Assembly (NCBI GenBank): GCA_016215105.1
Contig: JACRLJ010000007.1
Span: 1-33,431 of the forward strand
DNA length: 33,431 nucleotides
Source: Candidatus Hydrogenedentota bacterium
GTDB lineage: Bacteria > Hydrogenedentota > Hydrogenedentia > Hydrogenedentales > SLHB01
Direction: 5' to 3'
Below, one piece after another: positions 2,921-30,939 of this stretch; the stretch's first letter is position 1, and every line of letters begins with the position of its first letter. The notes beneath the pieces are model-generated. The model was given only the letters and a program-made list of their open reading frames with translations. It did no database searches and was not told where the DNA came from. A program made the translations under genes and the position numbers.

Positions 2921-4549
2921 ATGCTGGCGGAAGAACAACGCTTACACGAAGCGCATAGCCGCACTGCCAATTGGCAACGGTGGGGGCCGTACTTGTCCGA
3001 GCGGCAGTGGGGCACGGTGCGCGAAGATTACTCTGCCGATGGCGAACCCTGGGAGTATTTCCCGCATGACCACGCGCGCAGCCGCGCCTACCGCTGGGGC
3101 GAGGACGGTCTGCTGGGCATCACGGACCGCGAATGCCGCTTGTGTTTCGCGCTTGCGCTGTGGAACGGCCGCGACCCTATTCTCAAAGAGCGCTTCTTCG
3201 GTCTGACCGGCCACGAGGGCAACCACGGCGAAGACGTCAAGGAGTGCTACTACTATCTTGACTCGACGCCGACGCACTCCTACCTGAAAGCCTTGTACAA
3301 ATATCCTCAGGCCGAGTTTCCCTATGACGCCCTCGTCCACACCGTGAAACGGGACGCAAAGCATGAGCCGGAGTTTGAACTGACCGATACCGGCGTGTTC
3401 GACGGCGACCGCTACTTCGACGTGCTTGTCGAGTACGCCAAGAACGCGCCCGACGATATCTGCATCCGGATTACCGCCGCCAACCGGGGACCGGAGAAAG
3501 CCGCGTTGCATCTGTTGCCAACCTTCTGGTTCCGCAACACGTGGTCCTGGGGCTGCAAGCATGAGGGCTGCTGGATGAAGCCGCGCATCACGCAGACCGG
3601 CGAAGGAACGTGTTCGGCGCATCACGTCACCCTGGGGAAGCTCGCGTTTCAGGCCGGCCCCCGCCCCGACGGGGCCTATCCGCCGCTGTTGTTTACCGAA
3701 AACGAGACCAACACCGAGCGGCTCAATCAAACGCCGAATCGCTTGCCGTTCGTCCGCGACGCGTTCCATGACTACATCGTCCATGGCACGATCGGCGCTG
3801 TGAACCCGAAGAAGACCGGAACGAAGGCGGCGGCCCACTACCAGCTGGAGATCGCCCCCGGCGCCGAAATCTCGGTGTCGTTGCGGCTCTACCAGGAAGA
3901 TGCGGCTCCTGCGGACGCCTTTGGCGTTGGCTTTGCCCAAGTGTTCGTTGACCGCATCCGCGAGGCGGACGAATTCTACGCCGCGCGCACTCCGGCAGGC
4001 GCGACCGGCGCCGAACGGCACGTGATCCGCCAAGCCTACGCGGGCTTGCTGTGGAACAAACAGTTCTATCATTACATTGTGCAAGACTGGCTCGAGGGCG
4101 ATCCCGCAATGCCCCCGCCGCCCGAGTCTCACAAACACAAGCGCAACACCGGTTGGCCTCACCTGTTTAACCGCGATGTCATCTCAATGCCGGACTCGTG
4201 GGAGTATCCGTGGTACGCCGCGTGGGACCTCGCATTCCACATGATTGCCTTCGCGGCCATTGATCCCGAGTTTGCCAAGAGCCAGCTTTTGCTCGTCCTA
4301 CGCGAGTGGTACATGCATCCAAATGGCCAGATTCCGGCCTACGAATTCGCGCTGGGAGACGCCAATCCCCCCGTGCACGCCTGGGTCTGCTGGCGCGTCT
4401 ACAAAATGACCGGACCGAAGGGCGCCCGCGACACCGTCTTCCTCGCGCGGGCGTTTCTCAAGCTTCTACAGCGCCACCATGCTGGCCATGGCGCTCGAAC
4501 TGGCCCGCGACAATCCGGAGTACGAAGACGTCGCCTCAAAGTTCTTTGA
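2921..4549 (+). CDS. Glucosidase (MGH1-like/GH63), N-terminal part of a broken gene
   Basis: The product begins like the roughly 850-900-residue cytosolic MGH1-like glucosidases: [19 protein letters not shown], the [18 protein letters not shown] block, then [19 protein letters not shown] and GNHGEDVKE. The catalytic-domain start is visible as [14 protein letters not shown]. The start ATG follows ACGAGGAACC. The family match ends at the codons for AFLK near 4462. After that the frame reads unrelated residues ([14 protein letters not shown]) to a stop at 4547-4549, while the family sequence resumes in another frame from about 4464 ([14 protein letters not shown]). Roughly 50 conserved residues appear to be missing at the join, a non-triplet loss. 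As read, this half should be inactive alone. Likely substrate class is a glucoside or mannosylglycerate-like compound, by family only. Confidence 0.85.
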
Positions 4550-5444
4550 GCACTTTATTGCGATCACCGACGCGATGAACACCTTGGGTGGGACAGGCCT
4601 GTGGAACGAGGAAGACGGCTTCTACTATGACCAGATAAAGCTGCCGGATGCCTCGATTCCGCTGCGCATTCGCTCCATTGTCGGCGTCATTCCTCTGTTT
4701 GCGGTCGAAGTGCTGGACAAAGAAGTCATCGAAAGTCTTGACGGGTTCAAGACGCGCCTCAATTGGTTTCTCGACAACCGGAGCGAGTTGGCCGCGAGCA
4801 TTTCCTACCTCGATCGGTGCGCGCCCCGCGAAGGCGCGCACACCCGCCGTCTATTGGCGATTCCGTCGCGTGAACGCCTCGAACGCGTGTTGCGCTACGT
4901 ACTTGACGAGAACGAGTTCCTCGCGCCGCACGGCGTGCGCTCGCTGTCGCGTGTGCATCTCGCGAGACCTTTCGTCTTCCGATGGGACTCGAAAGAGGCG
5001 CAAGTGGACTACGAGCCCGGCAATTCGTCCACGGACCTGTTCGGCGGGAATTCCAATTGGCGGGGTCCTGTCTGGTCTCCGCTGAACTATCTGCTGATCG
5101 AAGCGCTGGAGCGCTACCACTACTTCTATGGCGATACGCTGCGCTTGGAATTCCCAACCGGATCGGGAAACCTGCTGAATCTCGGCGAGATCGCCCACGA
5201 ACTGGCCGCCAGAATCTCGCGGCTTTTCGTGCCGGACGATCAGGGGCGCCGCCCGTGCTTCGGCGCCGACGCGCGCTACGCCCGCGATCCGCACTGGCGC
5301 GATTTGATACTGTTCCACGAGTACTTCCACGGTGACGATGGCAGAGGTCTGGGCGCGAGTCATCAAACCGGCTGGACCGCGCTTGTAGTCCGCACGCTCG
5401 AACAAGCCATTGCCGCGCGCCAGGTCCGGAGTCCCCAGTCATGA
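4479..5444 (+). CDS. Glucosidase (MGH1-like/GH63), C-terminal part of a broken gene
   Basis: This is the second half of the same glucosidase, 321 residues from the ATG at 4479, although homologous sequence is already in frame from 4464. It covers the end of the (alpha/alpha)6 barrel: [41 protein letters not shown], then [23 protein letters not shown], the conserved substrate-pocket stretch, and [15 protein letters not shown] near the end. The upstream half is in a different frame, so only a frameshift or an internal start could express it. The ATG at 4479 is a normal internal Met with no ribosome site. Its stop overlaps the start of the next gene by four bases (ATGA, 5441-5444), which shows the original gene was coupled to the hydrolase downstream. 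Confidence 0.82.
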
Positions 5445-8304: not shown

Positions 8305-11283
8305 TCAGAAGTACCCAATCGCCTGGAGGCGGCTTTTCTGTTCGTCGGACAAATTCTTCTGCACGACGGGTTCGGCGGCATTTCCCTTGTTGAATTCTCG
8401 CATGCCCTCGAGCGTTATGCCGAGTTCACGCTCTTCGGGACGGCCGGTTCCCCCAAGGTCTGCCTGCTCGCCTGGGTCGGCGATAAGGTCATAAAGCTCA
8501 TGCGGCTTGGTTCGCATGTTGCCTTCGTTCGCATGTATCAGCTTGTGCTCGTTTGTGCGGACCGCCTGCAGGACATTTCCCTCGAAATCGACTTCGGAGT
8601 AGACGAAGCCGACGTCCGCGTTAGGCGCCGGATTCGCCGCCGTGACCAGCGATATGCCCTGCATCCCTCTTGCTGGGCTCAAGCCCGCAAGGTGAAGGAG
8701 TGTCGGCGCGAGATCCACGTGGCGCGCAAGATGGTCGTTCACCGCGGGGGTGTTTCCCGGCAATTTGAGAATCAACGGGACGTGGAGCTGCTCGTCGTAG
8801 AGCGTATCGCCGTGCCACCAGCCGCGGTGCTCGTAGAATTCTTCTCCATGATCGCCCGTCAGCACGATCACGGTCTTGTCGTATAGCCCGCGCTGTTTCA
8901 GTCCATCGAACAGTCTGCCCAACTGGGTGTCGAGGTATTCGACATCTCCGGTGTAGACCTCCTTAAACAACTCCTCGTATTTCGCCGGGTCCGGATGCTC
9001 CATGGCCGCCCTCGCGTACCCGATACCAGGACGCTTGTGGTCAATGTAGGGGTCGTGGCAATCCATGTAGTGCAGGAACAGGTAGAACGGCGCATCCTTT
9101 GGCCGCGCGGCGCTGTCCAACCAAGCCAGGGCCGTGCCCGTCACCACTTCCCCCGGCTGAAAGTAGTCCGTCACGACGACCTTCTTAATCATACGCGCCC
9201 GCGCTTTGCGAAGCGCTTGGTACAGCACGGTATTGACCGCGGACGCCGGCGCTCCAAAGCGCGTGTTCGGTTGCAGATCTTCGTAGTCAACAAAGCCCTT
9301 CTGGAAATTCCAAACTCTCGCGATGTTGCCATTGTTGGAGTAGCCTAGCGTGTAGTACCCCGCCGCGAGCAACACGTCCGCCAACGTCGTGATCGTCCCT
9401 GGCATCACCGAGTCTTGGCCAGTCACGGTGTGCGATGTTGGATAGCGCCCGGTAAACATGGTCGCAAAGCTTGGTTTGGTCCAGGGGGCTTGCGCGAAGC
9501 ATTTGGTAAATACGACGGAATTTGCCGCCAACGCGTCGAGGTGCGGTGTCTTCGTTCGCGCGCTGGCGTTGAATGATTTCAGGTAGTCCGCGCGAAGCGT
9601 ATCGATTCCCAGGAAGATGATATTGGGTCCTGCGGCTGTCTCTGGCGGCGCGAAAGGCAACGTGACAGGGTGAAGCGAGGCCGACTTGGCCATACCACCG
9701 CCCGCGGAGACGATGGCAAGAAATACGATGACAGGAACAAGTACTGCGCCCAATTTCGAAGTGTTGAATTGCCGTGCGCTCAGCCCTGAAGACACAGCCG
9801 CAATAAGCGCAATGGTTATGGCCGCTCCGATAAGCGCCGCCAACTGGCCGGGTGTGAGGTCATGTTTCAACATTACGTCGCGATAGTATCGGAAGCCTCC
9901 GACCCCAAGCGTGCCCAGACCCAGCAGACCTCCCAGGCACCATGCGAATACCCATCCGCGGCAGATGAAGCGGTCAAACAGTAGCGAAAGGAACGCCGCA
10001 CACGCAGCAAGCCCGGTTCCTACGCAGACAAACACGATCCCGTATGCCAGCGGCCCCCAGCACAGCACGCCCAGTTCGGTGAACTCCGCACTCTGGCTCG
10101 TTAGCCATTTGGCTTCGGCGAGCCCGATAAGCGCGCCTGAAACCAATCCGCCCAGGGCGCCACCCAACACATAATCCGCAAGGCGCTCGCGATACACGCG
10201 GATTTGTTCCGGCGAAAGCGTTACCATCCCGGCGCCTTGCCGCGCTTGCGCCCGCAACTCCGCCCACTTCGCCTTCGTTTCGGCTGCGGTACGGACGGGC
10301 TTGAACACGAAGAGGATCCAACCCACGATGTACGGCCCCAGGTCCCCCACCCACCAGCCCAGATGCGCAAACGCCAACGCGGACGCTTGCCCGCTGGTGT
10401 CGCCCAGCAACGTGACAAAGACCAGTTCGCGAACGCCCATGCCGCCGATCACCGGCGCAACCACGGTTCCGTAAATCAGCAGCGGGCTCGCGAATAGGAT
10501 ATCGAGCAGCGACGTGTGCGGGGCGCGGATCGCCATCATGGTTCCGAAGTACATGAGGCAGGCCCCGAGATGCACCAGCAAGCCAAAGAACACCGCCAGC
10601 AAAAGGTCAAGCCGGTTTCCGCTGTAGGCCGTCACCGCGGCGCCGAGCTTGGACACTTTGCCGCGGATAGCTCCTGGAACCGGCAGCGTCATCAAGAGCG
10701 CCTGGATCGCGCGGGGATTCAACAATAGAAGAAACGAGGCCAAGACGATGGCGCCCATCACCACAAGCAGGAGCGCGAACAGGACCCAATTGATTTTGAG
10801 CAGTCTGAATCCCAGAGGAAAGGTCAGGAGCACGAGAAACGTCAGGGCAATAAAGCCGATAAGTTTTTCGATCGCGATGACCGTCGTACATTTGATCACC
10901 TCGCCGGTATAGAGCGAGGAATCCACCAAACGATAGCCGTCGAGACCCAAGGTGCCTGGAAAATATAGGCCGAAGTATCGGCCTACAAACCAACTCCGCG
11001 CCATATACCCGAACGGTATGCTCAGGCCTTGACCACGCAGCAGGATTTGCCAGCGCAGTACCCCCGCGAGCATACCGAGCAGGCGAACCGCGGCCGCAAA
11101 GGCCAGCCAAGATACAGTGTGACGAGCCCCTGCGCCGGTAAGTGCGGCAAGCACTTGGCTTGGCGAAACGTGATTGAACAAATCCGGTTTCAGCCTGAAC
11201 CATTCGGGATGGAACAACAACACAAACAAGGCAGCGCTGACGGCTGCTTTGAGTAGCAGAAGCGTGAGCCGCTTTGTCATCAA
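8305..11283 (-). CDS. Flippase-like (UPF0104) membrane domain fused to sulfatase-superfamily domain
   Basis: This 992-residue membrane protein has three parts. Residues 1-330 are a UPF0104/LPG-synthase-TM-like multi-pass domain (RSWFVGRYFGLYFPGTLGLDGYR is split by helices, and GMGVRELVFVTLLG is typical). Residues about 365-535 form a second set of hydrophobic helices. Residues about 550-930 are an alkaline-phosphatase/sulfatase-fold domain, probably periplasmic: metal site GIDTLRADYL near 557, nucleophile loop PWTKPSFATMFTGRYP with Thr602, then LTGDHGEEF and HGDTLYDEQLHVPL. The usual sulfatase Cys/Ser for formylglycine is Thr, as in LtaS/EptA-type phospho-group transferases. Transfer of a head group to a lipid or glycan is therefore as likely as sulfate hydrolysis. 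It converges with the phosphatase gene, 70 bases apart. A paired start (MMTK) is preceded by GAAGG. Confidence 0.87.
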   Translation of the reverse strand: MMTKRLTLLLLKAAVSAALFVLLFHPEWFRLKPDLFNHVSPSQVLAALTGAGARHTVSWLAFAAAVRLLGMLAGVLRWQILLRGQGLSIPFGYMARSWFVGRYFGLYFPGTLGLDGYRLVDSSLYTGEVIKCTTVIAIEKLIGFIALTFLVLLTFPLGFRLLKINWVLFALLLVVMGAIVLASFLLLLNPRAIQALLMTLPVPGAIRGKVSKLGAAVTAYSGNRLDLLLAVFFGLLVHLGACLMYFGTMMAIRAPHTSLLDILFASPLLIYGTVVAPVIGGMGVRELVFVTLLGDTSGQASALAFAHLGWWVGDLGPYIVGWILFVFKPVRTAAETKAKWAELRAQARQGAGMVTLSPEQIRVYRERLADYVLGGALGGLVSGALIGLAEAKWLTSQSAEFTELGVLCWGPLAYGIVFVCVGTGLAACAAFLSLLFDRFICRGWVFAWCLGGLLGLGTLGVGGFRYYRDVMLKHDLTPGQLAALIGAAITIALIAAVSSGLSARQFNTSKLGAVLVPVIVFLAIVSAGGGMAKSASLHPVTLPFAPPETAAGPNIIFLGIDTLRADYLKSFNASARTKTPHLDALAANSVVFTKCFAQAPWTKPSFATMFTGRYPTSHTVTGQDSVMPGTITTLADVLLAAGYYTLGYSNNGNIARVWNFQKGFVDYEDLQPNTRFGAPASAVNTVLYQALRKARARMIKKVVVTDYFQPGEVVTGTALAWLDSAARPKDAPFYLFLHYMDCHDPYIDHKRPGIGYARAAMEHPDPAKYEELFKEVYTGDVEYLDTQLGRLFDGLKQRGLYDKTVIVLTGDHGEEFYEHRGWWHGDTLYDEQLHVPLILKLPGNTPAVNDHLARHVDLAPTLLHLAGLSPARGMQGISLVTAANPAPNADVGFVYSEVDFEGNVLQAVRTNEHKLIHANEGNMRTKPHELYDLIADPGEQADLGGTGRPEERELGITLEGMREFNKGNAAEPVVQKNLSDEQKSRLQAIGYF

Positions 11284-23101: not shown

Positions 23102-23931
23102 CTATGGGCGCGACCGCCAATAGCCGAGTAGATCCGCCAGGAGCATCTCGAACGGTATTTTCGGCTTCCAGCCGGTGTGGGCGGTGAGCTTTTCGTGCGT
23201 TCCGCGGATGTCTTTCACATCGACCGGACGCAACCGCGCCTCGTCCACCTCGACGCGAATCGGAGTCTTCGACAGCGAAAGTAGCGTGTCCAAGGCTGCC
23301 TGAATGGTCCGTGACTGCCCCGAGCAGACGTTGTACACCTCACCGGGTCTGCCATGCAGCGCCGCCAACTCGTATGCCCGCACCACGTCCGATACGTGCG
23401 AGAAATCCCGCGCCGCGCTGAGATTTCCCACGCGTAGCACCGGCTCGGCGTTTCCCGCCTCGATGACGGCAATTTGCCGCGCGAAGTTCGAGAGCACGAA
23501 GCGGTCCAACTGGCCGGGTCCGGATTGTCCGGCCGCAAGGGGTGATCCTCGGAAACAGGCAATGTCTCCGGAGCGCCGTAGGCGTCCGCGCTGCCCACGT
23601 AAATCAGGCGGGCGTTCGGAAGGTGCGTTTTCATTGCGGAGGCAAGGTGAATGGTCCCCACCAGATTGGCGGTCATGGCCAGCGCCGGGTCCTGTAAGGA
23701 ATCGGGCACGAACGTGAGCGCCGCCAGATGAAAGACGTGGGTCACCCCGCTTGCCCACGTCATCATTCGCTCGACTTCGACGCGATCGGTAATGTCGCAA
23801 GCGAAATAGCGTCCCGGGGGCGGATCGCGCAGCACGCTGCCCCGGACTTCCCACCCGTGGGCGGAAAGGTGGGCGCACAGCGTCTGTCCCACGAATCCCT
23901 CGGCCCCGGTTACGAGCGCGTTTGGGATCAT
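23102..23931 (-). pseudogene. rmd: GDP-6-deoxy-4-keto-D-mannose reductase (rmd-like), internally deleted and frameshifted
   Basis: The N-terminal half (from the ATG at 23931) is a Rossmann-fold SDR: NALVTGAEGFVGQTL, VFHLAALTFVPDS, YVGSADAYG, then EDHPLRPDNP. At about 23513-23527 the reading jumps. The homologous sequence continues in another frame as GPGQLDRFVLSNFARQIAVIEAG, RVGNLSAARDFSHVSDVVRAYEL and PGEVYNVCSG, ending at 23102. The expected stretch between DNP and GPGQ, which in the family holds the catalytic Tyr-x3-Lys and the NHTGPGQ lead-in, is missing. I estimate about 30-35 codons, a non-triplet loss. Without Tyr and Lys the product cannot be active. It starts two bases after gmd, so the pair was built to make GDP-D-rhamnose. 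An assembly error is a live alternative. Confidence 0.8.
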
Positions 23932-25206: not shown

Positions 25207-25791
25207 TCACCCCACCTCGCCCCGCGCCATCCGGTCGTACAACGCGAAGAACACGTCCCGGATGTTTCCCTGATGCCGATCAAATAGGCGCTCGATCAAT
25301 TTGTCGTCCCCGCCCCATGATTCCGCGTCGAGCGCGCGCATCAAGTCCGCCAGGAGGTCCGGAGACGTACGGCATTCGTAAAGCGCTGGAAGCCGGCCCG
25401 GAGTATGCACGGTGACGATCAGTCCTCCCGCGCGCCGCGTTATCCTCATGAAGCGCCGCCACGCCCACCATCCGAGTTGTTCGCACCCGTCCAGCAGTAT
25501 GACATCGCTCGGCGTCAGGCGCTCGGCCAACTCCCGCAAGAAGCCCGAATCAAAGCGAGGCCGCTCTTCGTTGAGGAATAGCCGGTGCGTCCGTAAGCCC
25601 AGTTCCTCTATTCGAGGCCCCAACGCTCGCAGGAACGTGCTCTTGCCGTGTCCGTGCGCCCCTACCACCGCCGCGCGATATCCCAAGCCGGCCAGGCGAG
25701 ACATAATCTGCTCCCAGGATACGCCGGCCAACCGGTACTCCAGCGCGTGCAGCCGGCTCGTGCGGAACGGGTTCTCACACGCGGTCGTCAT
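25207..25791 (-). CDS. Small P-loop ATPase of unknown role
   Basis: This 194-residue protein has Walker A GAHGHGKST near residues 43-51 and Walker B VILLDGCEQLG near 95-105. An RxTRRAGGLIVTVHTPG strand and a helical C-terminus (LIERLFDRHQGNIRDVFFALYDRMARG) complete it. The start ATG at 25789-25791 overlaps the upstream TGA stop (TGATG). An upstream in-frame extension would overlap that gene and is not needed. It lacks ABC signature and AAA+ sensor motifs that I can see, so the subfamily is open. It is the last gene of a three-gene unit with two arrestin-like proteins. A role as switch or motor for that unit is inference. Confidence 0.8.
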   Translation of the reverse strand: MTTACENPFRTSRLHALEYRLAGVSWEQIMSRLAGLGYRAAVVGAHGHGKSTFLRALGPRIEELGLRTHRLFLNEERPRFDSGFLRELAERLTPSDVILLDGCEQLGWWAWRRFMRITRRAGGLIVTVHTPGRLPALYECRTSPDLLADLMRALDAESWGGDDKLIERLFDRHQGNIRDVFFALYDRMARGEVG

Positions 25792-26162
25792 CACTTCATC
25801 TCGACGCTCGAGAGCTTGAGCATTTCGGTCCAGGGCGACACCACAATATCGATTCGCAACGAGTCCTTCCCCTTGTTGAGAACGAGCTCGATCGCCCATT
25901 GCAGCGAGATCAGCGCGCCCGCAAAACTGTACGGCGCGGCCGGCAACGTGAATTGAAACGTTTGTTCGACGGCGAGCTGGTTAGCCGGCAACTCCTGTTC
26001 TTCCGCGATATTCACGTCCTGGTCGCCACGGCCCTGCGTATACCAAACTAACCGCAGAAACGCTTCGCTCGGAGGATGGATCAATTCCCAGCCCATTACT
26101 CCCGCCACCACCTGACCGGGCGAGAACTCTTTTGCGTCACCATTGATCCGTAGCGTCAGCAT
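25791..26162 (-). CDS. Soluble arrestin-like domain protein
   Basis: This protein of 123 residues has an all-beta pattern: LTLRINGDAKEFSPGQVVAGVMGWEL, then FLRLVWYTQGRG, then FQFTLPAAPYSFAGALISLQWAIEL and IDIVVSPW. The FSPGQVVAG turn, F-x-F-x-LP and PYSF-G-LIS-W-IE are the pattern I associate with arrestin/Spo0M-type beta sandwiches; no search was possible. The start is set at ATG 26160-26162, eight bases after the upstream stop, because the longer frame overlaps the preceding gene. No signal peptide or membrane helix is seen. It is coupled to the ATPase by a one-base overlap. Confidence 0.72.
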   Translation of the reverse strand: MLTLRINGDAKEFSPGQVVAGVMGWELIHPPSEAFLRLVWYTQGRGDQDVNIAEEQELPANQLAVEQTFQFTLPAAPYSFAGALISLQWAIELVLNKGKDSLRIDIVVSPWTEMLKLSSVEMK

Positions 26163-26169
26163 AGTTGGG

Positions 26170-27063
26170 TCATCCTTGCGGCGCGGGGAGCGGAAGTACG
26201 GTGATAGGAAATGACTCGTCAATATCCGGCCAACGGCGTATCACTCCCGCCACCTTCACCGTCCAAACGATCTTGTTGTGGGGCGCTTGAAAGCTGTGCA
26301 TGGTGAACTCCGGCAGTTGCACCGCCACGGCGCCGGCGCGAATCTCGGCCGGGTTCTCAGTTTCAAACAGTACGATCCGCTCGAACACGCTGGTCGCGGT
26401 GACTGTCCGTGTTCCTTGCTGGTACCGGGCCTCCTCGGCGCCTTCCAGCAAGATCCGCAGCTTCTCGATGCGGTTCGCTGAGCCGAAGATCGTGAACTCG
26501 AGATCTGCTTTTCCGCCCAGAATGATCGCCCCGGGAGTAAGCCGCAGATATGGGCGCGGATTGAACATCTTCAGAAGGCTGTAAACGGCTACCGCCAACA
26601 GTACGATTCCGATCGCGACAAACGGCAACATGAACAGAGAAACGAACGCGCCCTCCGACCAAGCATTGTAGGCCGCGAACCACACAAAGCCGTTCCAACA
26701 GGCGGCGAATACCGTCATCACGATAAACTGCGCCAGGCCGCTCTGCGCCGGCTTCAATTCCAGCGTGCCGCTCAGCGCGGTGGCCGGAACCACCGGCGTA
26801 GCCGTGATCTGCGCGCGTTTGCGGGGGCGGATAGCGGAAATCATGATCGCCACGCCGACAATGACGAATACTAGTGGAACCAGGACCACGAAGATTTGCG
26901 ATGGAAGCTGACCGGTGCGCGTCCATGCAGCAATCGCCGGTCCTCCAATCGCCACCGCCGCGAACCCGCCGATGCCGGCAAACACGGCGCCGAAAACCAC
27001 CTGCCCGCACGTAGCGTACGCCGGAGAAACCTGTGACGAAATCGCCCTTTGCTTCATACTCAC
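26170..27063 (-). CDS. Membrane protein with C-terminal arrestin-like domain
   Basis: This 297-residue protein has four apparent hydrophobic helices: VVFGAVFAGIGGFAAVAIGG, FVVLVPLVFVIVGVAIMIS, FIVMTVFAACWNGFVWF and LFMLPFVAIGIVLLAVAVYSLL. A soluble C-terminal domain of about 120 residues (PYLRLTPGAIILGGKADLEFTI, PEFTMHSFQAPHNKIVWTVKV and RWPDIDESFPITVLP) resembles the beta pattern of its soluble neighbour. Start GTG at 27061-27063 has GGGAG five bases before; an ATG two codons on is an alternative. As first gene of the cassette it may anchor the arrestin-like partner and the ATPase at the membrane. Function is unknown. Confidence 0.75.
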   Translation of the reverse strand: MSMKQRAISSQVSPAYATCGQVVFGAVFAGIGGFAAVAIGGPAIAAWTRTGQLPSQIFVVLVPLVFVIVGVAIMISAIRPRKRAQITATPVVPATALSGTLELKPAQSGLAQFIVMTVFAACWNGFVWFAAYNAWSEGAFVSLFMLPFVAIGIVLLAVAVYSLLKMFNPRPYLRLTPGAIILGGKADLEFTIFGSANRIEKLRILLEGAEEARYQQGTRTVTATSVFERIVLFETENPAEIRAGAVAVQLPEFTMHSFQAPHNKIVWTVKVAGVIRRWPDIDESFPITVLPLPAPQG

Positions 27064-29589: not shown

Positions 29590-30939
29590 TTACGCCTTGC
29601 CGGCGCGCCGCTTGAGCAGTTCCTCGTATTGCTTGATCCGAATATCGAAGAAACTCATCAGTTTCTCGTGGAGTTCGGCGTTTGCCGCCGCGATCAGGCT
29701 TCGGTGGTTTCCGACGGAACTATCCAACAACAACACATCGTCGAACGTGCCGCCGTATGCGTCCGTAACCGAACACCCGGCTTCCTGGGCGATCAGCACG
29801 GAGGCGGCAATGTCATACGGGGCGATCCCGATCACGGAACCTCGGCCCGCATTGATGAACTGATCCTCGACAATGTCGGGAATATCCCGGAGGTAGCGAT
29901 TGGCGATATCGATGCAGGCGTCGAGCTGGGTCGTCAGCAGACGAGTCAGACTGAAGGAGGTACTGTTGCAGGTAAAGAACCCCCCTTTGAGACTGGTGAG
30001 GTCAACGAGTTTCGCAGCGGTCGGGAAGATCAGTTCGGCGGGCCGCGCGGGCACGGTCATCGACCACGAAACGATTTCGAGATTTGTATTCTTTGACAGT
30101 TTGGGCTTCTTGATCGCGCCGTCCGCATAGATGCGCGCACCTTTGCCGCGTTCGGCGTAGAACGTGCGCTGACCGACAATCTCCATCACGCAGGCGTTCT
30201 CGACGTCGATCATTCGTGGCCGCTCGATGACCCGTGTGCTGGCCACCGATACCACACAGCTTTCGAATCCGCTCTTGGCGGCGCGTGAACCGTCGATTGG
30301 ATCGATCACCAGGAGATTCTGCGGCTGTCCGCTGCTGAAGGTGGTGTATCCCGCGTCTTCCGAATAGTAGGCGACCGGCCGCTTTGCTTCTTTCAGAAAC
30401 GCGAGCAACGCCTTCTCGGCCACGGTGTCCAGTTCGAAGGTGGCGTCGCCGCTCGCGGCCAACCCGACTACTTCCCGGCCCTTGGCGGCATGGACGTAAG
30501 GCAGTACCGCGGTGCGAATCGCCGTCGCGAGCTCCACCAGAAACTCGCGGGGAAGCGCGGCCGCTTTGGACCCCCGAATGACGGGAACCACGGCAGGCGC
30601 GACGTGATTGGAAACACTAGGAGGGGGCGCGGAAGCAGGCGCTGCCTTCTTGCTGGTTGACGGGCTTGGTTTCTTCTGGGCTGCGGCTTCGAGCCTGGCG
30701 CGAACGGACGGCTTAGTTGTCGCCGTTGGCGCGGTTTTGCGCGCGATCCGCGCGGTCTTCTTGGCAGGTTTACGCGGTTGGGGTTTCGACACGCGTTTCT
30801 TGGACGCGCTTTTTGCTTTGCCCGTCGCCGCCTTCTTGGGAACGGCCTTCTTCTTCGGGACTGGCCGCGCCGCCCGCGCCGTGGTCTTCGGCTTTTTCTT
30901 GAGTGTTTTCACGGCAGTCTTTGGTTTCGCTTTCGCCAT
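29590..30939 (-). CDS. Inositol monophosphatase family protein with histone H1-like N-terminal tail
   Basis: Of 449 residues, the first 100 are a Lys/Ala/Pro tail with 35 Lys+Arg and a single acidic residue, of the AKKTARIARKTA type found in histone H1-like bacterial proteins. From about 130 onward the protein is a Mg-dependent phosphatase: E194-D195 (YYSEDAG), D213-P-I-D216-G-S, and D376 in YDIAASVLIAQEAG. Substrates of the family include inositol phosphate, fructose bisphosphate and PAP; none can be chosen here. The start ATG has GAGG a few bases upstream and no alternative Met exists before the catalytic domain, so the tail is translated. It may bind nucleic acid or polyphosphate; this is inference. 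It lies 41 bases after the DUF6807 gene's stop side and upstream of zwf. Confidence 0.87.
   Translation of the reverse strand: MAKAKPKTAVKTLKKKPKTTARAARPVPKKKAVPKKAATGKAKSASKKRVSKPQPRKPAKKTARIARKTAPTATTKPSVRARLEAAAQKKPSPSTSKKAAPASAPPPSVSNHVAPAVVPVIRGSKAAALPREFLVELATAIRTAVLPYVHAAKGREVVGLAASGDATFELDTVAEKALLAFLKEAKRPVAYYSEDAGYTTFSSGQPQNLLVIDPIDGSRAAKSGFESCVVSVASTRVIERPRMIDVENACVMEIVGQRTFYAERGKGARIYADGAIKKPKLSKNTNLEIVSWSMTVPARPAELIFPTAAKLVDLTSLKGGFFTCNSTSFSLTRLLTTQLDACIDIANRYLRDIPDIVEDQFINAGRGSVIGIAPYDIAASVLIAQEAGCSVTDAYGGTFDDVLLLDSSVGNHRSLIAAANAELHEKLMSFFDIRIKQYEELLKRRAGKA

Follow-up and report, generated by a model that had tools for sequence, protein, structure and literature searches.

The alpha-arrestins, such as ARRDC3 and TXNIP, are bilobed soluble adaptors tied to ubiquitin ligases, and we know of none with a transmembrane (TM) anchor or an ATPase partner. 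VPS26, a component of the retromer and the retriever, is a eukaryotic cargo adaptor with the arrestin fold; it too is bilobed and soluble, its partners are VPS35 and VPS29, and, to our knowledge, its complex features no AAA+ partner. In Bacillus subtilis, the arrestin-clan fold is found in Spo0M (PDB 5cl2, PF07070), which carries its two lobes in one soluble chain and for which we are aware of neither split lobes nor an AAA+ partner. Spo0M has been assigned to the clan as the branch found in bacteria and archaea (PMC2515105), and complexes of it with FtsZ and ZapA have been reported from B. subtilis (PMC5325327). Bacterial proteins of the arrestin clan are known mainly as Spo0M (PMC2515105), and their roles are little understood.

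Here, we describe a cassette of three genes, A, B and C, from a Candidatus Hydrogenedentota bacterium, which lies in a window of 33,431 nucleotides (the whole stretch of DNA that was analysed; assembly GCA_016215105.1, contig JACRLJ010000007.1). Genes A and B each code for a beta domain that, as modelled (for B, in a close ortholog), matches the arrestin-clan proteins named above: the alpha-arrestins ARRDC3 and TXNIP are top matches for both domains, VPS26 is among the top matches of both, and Spo0M likewise matches both. In the window, the arrestin lobes are distributed over two genes rather than placed in tandem in one chain, while relatives of these proteins exist in which they form one chain.

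Layout, distribution and surroundings of the cassette

The three genes were found to be tightly linked on the minus strand (Table 1), as a preliminary description of this DNA had claimed. Of the spacing reported there, the one-base overlap between the stop of B and the start of C (TGATG) stands, whereas the gap between A and B amounts to 7 bases (26163–26169, CCCAACT) rather than 8; the upper end of 27063 proposed for the cassette corresponds to an in-frame GTG two codons upstream of the ATG of gene A (27057).

Table 1. Features of the cassette, with positions counted from the first letter of the window.
Feature	Positions	Strand	Remarks
Gene A	26170-27057	minus	295 aa, from ATG; four-TM protein with an arrestin-type lobe at its end
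TM1-TM2 of A	26818-27015	minus	residues ~15-80; hydropathy, alignment
TM3-TM4 hairpin of A	26557-26739	minus	residues ~107-167; immediately before the arrestin lobe
Arrestin-type lobe of A	26194-26556	minus	residues ~168-288; pLDDT ~97
Gene B	25791-26162	minus	123 aa; soluble single arrestin-type lobe
Gene C	25207-25791	minus	194 aa; predicted single-domain AAA+ ATPase, clamp-loader/initiator type
Walker A of C, GAHGHGKST	25636-25662	minus	residues 44-52
Walker B of C, VILLD	25489-25503	minus	residues 97-101
GNIR motif of C	25258-25269	minus	residues 175-178; sensor-2-like

The cassette is real and lies far beyond chance, since A, B and C are all conserved, and many genomes carry relatives of them in this same order. 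A profile of B, scanned against 84,980 species genomes, recovered 41 loci, labelled as Hydrogenedentota, Planctomycetota (with Sedimentisphaerales and Pirellulaceae), Verrucomicrobiota, Acidobacteriota, Sumerlaeota, a Victivallis (Lentisphaerota), a Bdellovibrionales and a Pseudomonadota bin. The order A-B-C is maintained in at least seven phyla, and, by our own count, all three genes are adjacent in that order in 30 of the 41 loci, the others being mostly contig ends or loci with C elsewhere; the idea that the homologues stay together across phyla was thereby confirmed. Further, C was found in each of the 24 genomes checked, including four whose B locus has no adjacent C, and many of the A-B and B-C junctions in the loci of other phyla feature ATGA overlaps.

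Within the Hydrogenedentota, B and C occur in an identical set of 11 genomes out of 68 and in no others, and A and B were found in the same 11 of 60 related genomes, all 11 of which also have C. The cassette nearest to that of the window comes from the genome G038, at a locus that we term L051 (Candidatus Hydrogenedentes). An exception to the linkage is seen in the genome G042, where A lies on a different contig from B and C. In a sample of 294 Planctomycetota genomes, by our own reading, 23 have both B and C, two have B only and one has C only (Fisher p = 7.6e-31), counts that leave the single-chain forms described below aside, mix E-value limits and come from genomes of unstated completeness. 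In the sampled Verrucomicrobiota and Acidobacteriota, B was found in 14 of 214 and 6 of 217 genomes, respectively, a few of these matches being fused or single-chain forms. The cassette is mostly present in a single copy and sporadic among genomes, some of which carry tandem duplicates of A. These computations show that A, B and C are inherited as a set.

A survey of the neighbourhoods of the cassette loci showed no conserved gene beyond the trio. In the window, the same-strand genes upstream of the cassette read as a 6-phosphogluconolactonase and a glucose-6-phosphate dehydrogenase, and we left them out of the cassette because no neighbour is generally common to the cassettes elsewhere. Two flanking clusters (3 and 4) were rejected as neighbours, being long ORFs that overlap the cassette on the opposite strand. 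Several other genes of the window have features of their own. The product of 29590-30939 (minus strand) is an inositol monophosphatase-type protein (Pfam Inositol_P, E = 1.2e-15, residues 132-429), preceded by a lysine/alanine/proline-rich N-terminal tail of ~100 residues that reads like a histone-H1-type tail, an unusual pairing. At 23102-23931 (minus strand), the N- and C-terminal parts of a GDP-mannose dehydratase/epimerase-type gene lie in two overlapping frames, which points to a frameshift, either real or assembly-made. By eye, the overlapping ORFs at 2921-4549 and 4479-5444 (plus strand, different frames) likewise resemble one glucosidase-type protein with a frameshift. Finally, a 992-aa ORF at 8305-11283 (minus strand) combines a membrane region of the lysylphosphatidylglycerol-synthase type with a sulfatase domain.

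The arrestin-type lobes and the ATPase

The hydropathy of A displays four hydrophobic segments (residues ~15-45, 48-80, 107-130 and 132-167) followed by a beta domain, in agreement with the earlier proposal that one of the two beta proteins is membrane-anchored. A model of window A built from 34 sequences has a mean pLDDT of 84, with the C-terminal domain reaching ~97. The top PDB structure matches of this domain are from the arrestin clan, namely the N-lobe of ARRDC3 (E = 1.8e-8) and Spo0M (E = 1.5e-6), with TXNIP, VPS26C, VPS26 and the beta-arrestins among the further matches; a comparison of the sequence profile of A with PDB chains gave no arrestin match. Judging from the four TM segments and from the basic residues found at the N-terminus, after TM4 and in the stretch that separates TM2 from TM3, the lobe of A would be cytoplasmic, a side of the membrane that B and C would share.

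The majority of the relatives of A (26 of 34) contain the Pfam domain DUF3592 (PF12158; best E = 1.5e-20), which the alignment places between TM1 and TM2 on the extracytoplasmic side. Window A has no DUF3592 match in Pfam and, along with its two closest relatives, lacks the domain in the alignment, yet all three keep B and C. In some relatives (e.g., L076, L083 and L073), the DUF3592/TM module is repeated, giving proteins of ~560-610 aa. We also noted that the DUF3592 part of the relatives of A has a weak profile match in calcium-activated potassium channels, to their beta subunits (PDB 6v22, E = 0.0028), with the Pfam family CaKB being found in three of the 34; in those subunits, too, two TM helices flank an extracellular domain, and the match could be due to chance.

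For B and C, we modelled both proteins jointly from the ortholog L051, with the two genes in one frame and the intervening stop written as glycine; hence, the fold models of B and C are those of the ortholog, which is 61% (B) and 54% (C) identical to the window proteins. This B-C read-through took the place of an A-B read-through alignment, which was dropped for folding because the aligner had placed the lobe of A on B. The joint model has a mean pLDDT of 93.8 and is poor at the joint only. Foldseek matched its B part to ARRDC3 (E = 2.4e-8), VPS26B (E = 7e-7) and Spo0M (E = 1.9e-6), and the arrestin-like folds that had been read from the beta patterns of A and B were both recovered, the arrestin clan being the top match for A in the window model and for B in the L051 model. 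At the sequence level, nine of the 43 relatives of B match Pfam Arrestin_N (best E = 5e-4), and the only match of the B profile among PDB chains was TXNIP (E = 0.28). The window proteins themselves have no arrestin-family sequence match: Pfam and NCBIfam run on them alone gave nothing decisive, and no match to the Spo0M profile (PF07070) is listed for window A and B.

The relationship between the two lobes emerged from weak matches of B in the Planctomycetota, which are single-chain proteins composed of a B-like N-lobe, a TM hairpin and an A-like C-lobe. One of these (L146) scores above the Pfam cut-offs for both Arrestin_N (65 bits; cut-off 24.9) and Arrestin_C (32 bits; cut-off 27.7). In profile-profile comparisons, B matches the N-lobe of the single-chain form (E = 1.4e-11) and A its hairpin and C-lobe (E = 3e-20); run against the whole genome of the window, the single-chain profile hits two places and no others: its C-lobe matches gene A (E = 3.4e-10) and its N-lobe gene B (E = 8e-5). 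Further, there are three single-ORF fusions of A to B, in the order A-B, in other genomes (L122, L192 and L193). The direct comparison of the A and B profiles is weak (probability 2%, E = 0.02). Taken together, the single-chain homologues, the profile matches, the genome-wide result and the fusions provide strong evidence that A and B, which the preliminary description had taken for two separate arrestin-like proteins, would instead be the C-lobe and the N-lobe, respectively, of one split arrestin; the arrestin-like folds stand, their independence does not.

In about six of ten single-chain loci (e.g., L202), a C-like AAA+ gene lies directly upstream on the same strand, and there is strong evidence that the split and the single-chain forms alike are linked to the ATPase. 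DUF3592 was not seen in the single-chain forms, and their matches to the Spo0M profile are weak and under the cut-off. Two single-chain proteins (L146:3957-5717 and L147:4457-6067) extend well beyond the second lobe at their C-terminal ends, and the domains in which the two extensions finish resemble each other.

The ATPase, described earlier as being of no obvious family, can now be assigned. The C part of the L051 model comprises a P-loop domain and a C-terminal helical part, as in AAA+ proteins, and its Foldseek matches are RFC (E = 1.6e-6) and, at ~1e-4, ORC and RarA. On the strength of this model, C is predicted to be a minimal AAA+ ATPase of the RFC/ORC/RarA-like type. Its sequence profile matches mostly generic P-loops among PDB chains. 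A match to the Pfam family Glyco_trans_4_4 (E = 2.5e-5, under the cut-off) was set aside, as it is not a family matched by most members of C. In the Walker A motif, G44, G47, G49 and K50 are invariant in 35 of 35 relatives. The Walker B aspartate is equally invariant (35/35), but the residue that follows it is glycine in 29, serine in five and cysteine in one, with the canonical catalytic glutamate in none; an acidic residue is present at +3 from the aspartate in 33 of the 35. The sensor-2-like GNxR motif, assigned by sequence position rather than structural superposition, retains its arginine in 34 of 35, and a histidine at the approximate place of sensor 1 is invariant across the 35 sequences. 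The missing Walker-B glutamate suggests that C may be a switch with slow or unusual ATP hydrolysis.

Possible mechanism and alternative explanations

We favour the reading that the cassette is an ATP-controlled, membrane-anchored split arrestin for a membrane-protein client, to which we assign a probability of about 50%. In such a system, B would dock onto the lobe of A at the cytoplasmic face of the inner membrane, rebuilding a two-lobed arrestin-like clamp; the A-B and B-C contacts are proposed on account of the fusions and the gene neighbourhood. Less surely, the clamp might grip the cytoplasmic part of its client, by analogy with arrestins and VPS26, and, again less surely, C might govern the assembly or the release of the clamp through its ATP- and ADP-bound states. 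Here, C would act more as a switch or a slow timer than as a motor, given the absence of the canonical Walker-B glutamate. In most relatives, DUF3592 would supply an input from outside the membrane; the window copy lacks it. As to the wider purpose, we tentatively entertain a bacterial adaptor without named kin, in which the AAA+ switch would assemble or open the split arrestin clamp to sort, regulate or clear membrane proteins.

Other explanations have to be weighed against the same observations. C might be of a chaperone type, remodelling or assembling a membrane or metal-bearing complex while the lobes of A and B merely hold the substrate, much as MoxR AAA+ ATPases work with membrane-anchored VWA proteins. 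The layout of a small AAA+ beside a membrane-anchored beta-sandwich protein is indeed MoxR-like, and the mostly single-copy, sporadic occurrence of the cassette would suit such a role; however, none of the 25 Pfam families listed for C is that of MoxR (AAA_3), no conserved neighbour offers itself as a possible substrate, and C lacks the Walker-B glutamate, so that we regard this explanation as unlikely. The position of DUF3592 between TM1 and TM2 in 26 of the 34 relatives of A, with the module sometimes repeated within one protein, raises the possibility of transmembrane signalling, whereby DUF3592 would sense the outside, the two lobes would relay the signal and C would pass it on as a nucleotide switch, for which its non-canonical Walker B is fitting. 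Such a role is quite improbable, in that window A and its two nearest relatives retain B and C but not DUF3592, the single-chain forms also show none of it, and no kinase, receptor or regulator is conserved nearby.

The patchy distribution of the cassette, along with a weak resemblance of the P-loop of C to STAND/NACHT, would be in keeping with a defence module, namely an ATPase-gated membrane effector against phages. Yet PADLOC-DB contains no match for window A, B or C, with a single weak match in the P-loop region for a relative; no defence genes were seen among the neighbours examined, and the labels in the tree of C cluster by phylum. We consider a defence function very improbable. We likewise give very little credence to mere co-inheritance of A, B and C in an operon without a joint function: the identity correlations between the three proteins across loci are modest (A-B 0.31, A-C 0.25, B-C 0.59), but the order is maintained across phyla together with the ATGA overlaps, fusions occur in two orders, and C is retained at distant sites where the operon is broken.

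Comparison with described systems

The single-chain arrestin-clan membrane proteins of the Planctomycetota and Acidobacteriota (e.g., L146, L148 and L202) have the same two lobes as the cassette and the same TM hairpin before the C-lobe, and a gene for an AAA+ protein homologous to C often lies immediately upstream of them. They differ in consisting of one chain instead of two, in having no DUF3592 and in their ATPases, the four C-like proteins read beside them all featuring a canonical DE Walker B. We found no description of these proteins in open-licence papers. On the side of the ATPase, C resembles its top fold matches RFC, ORC/Cdc6 and RarA in the P-loop, the C-terminal helical part and the GNxR sensor-2-like motif. 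It departs from this clade in consisting of a single 194-aa domain with no DNA-related part attached, in having G, S or C in place of the Walker-B glutamate and in the invariant histidine near the sensor-1 place.

The preliminary description knew of no named system of this make-up, and our literature search concurs: in the open-licence papers searched, with few subscription journals or preprints covered, we found neither the trio nor any arrestin paired with an AAA+ protein, and no functional study of DUF3592, the sole paper on this domain concerning a beta-lactamase. On this basis, we consider the system to be of a new kind, with parts that are known folds. The cassette also supplies DUF3592 with a first partner and context.

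Against the background of Spo0M, the present analysis adds a membrane-anchored arrestin, split or single-chain, that travels with an AAA+ ATPase in many phyla, among them the Planctomycetota, Verrucomicrobiota, Acidobacteriota and Hydrogenedentota. With both a fused and a split form in existence, whether the lobes join can be tested directly. If they do so under the control of ATP, they would constitute a new type of membrane-protein adaptor in bacteria; and, should the proposed sorting or clearing of membrane proteins prove true, the cassette would be a bacterial counterpart in kind of the cargo selection by eukaryotic arrestins and the retromer.
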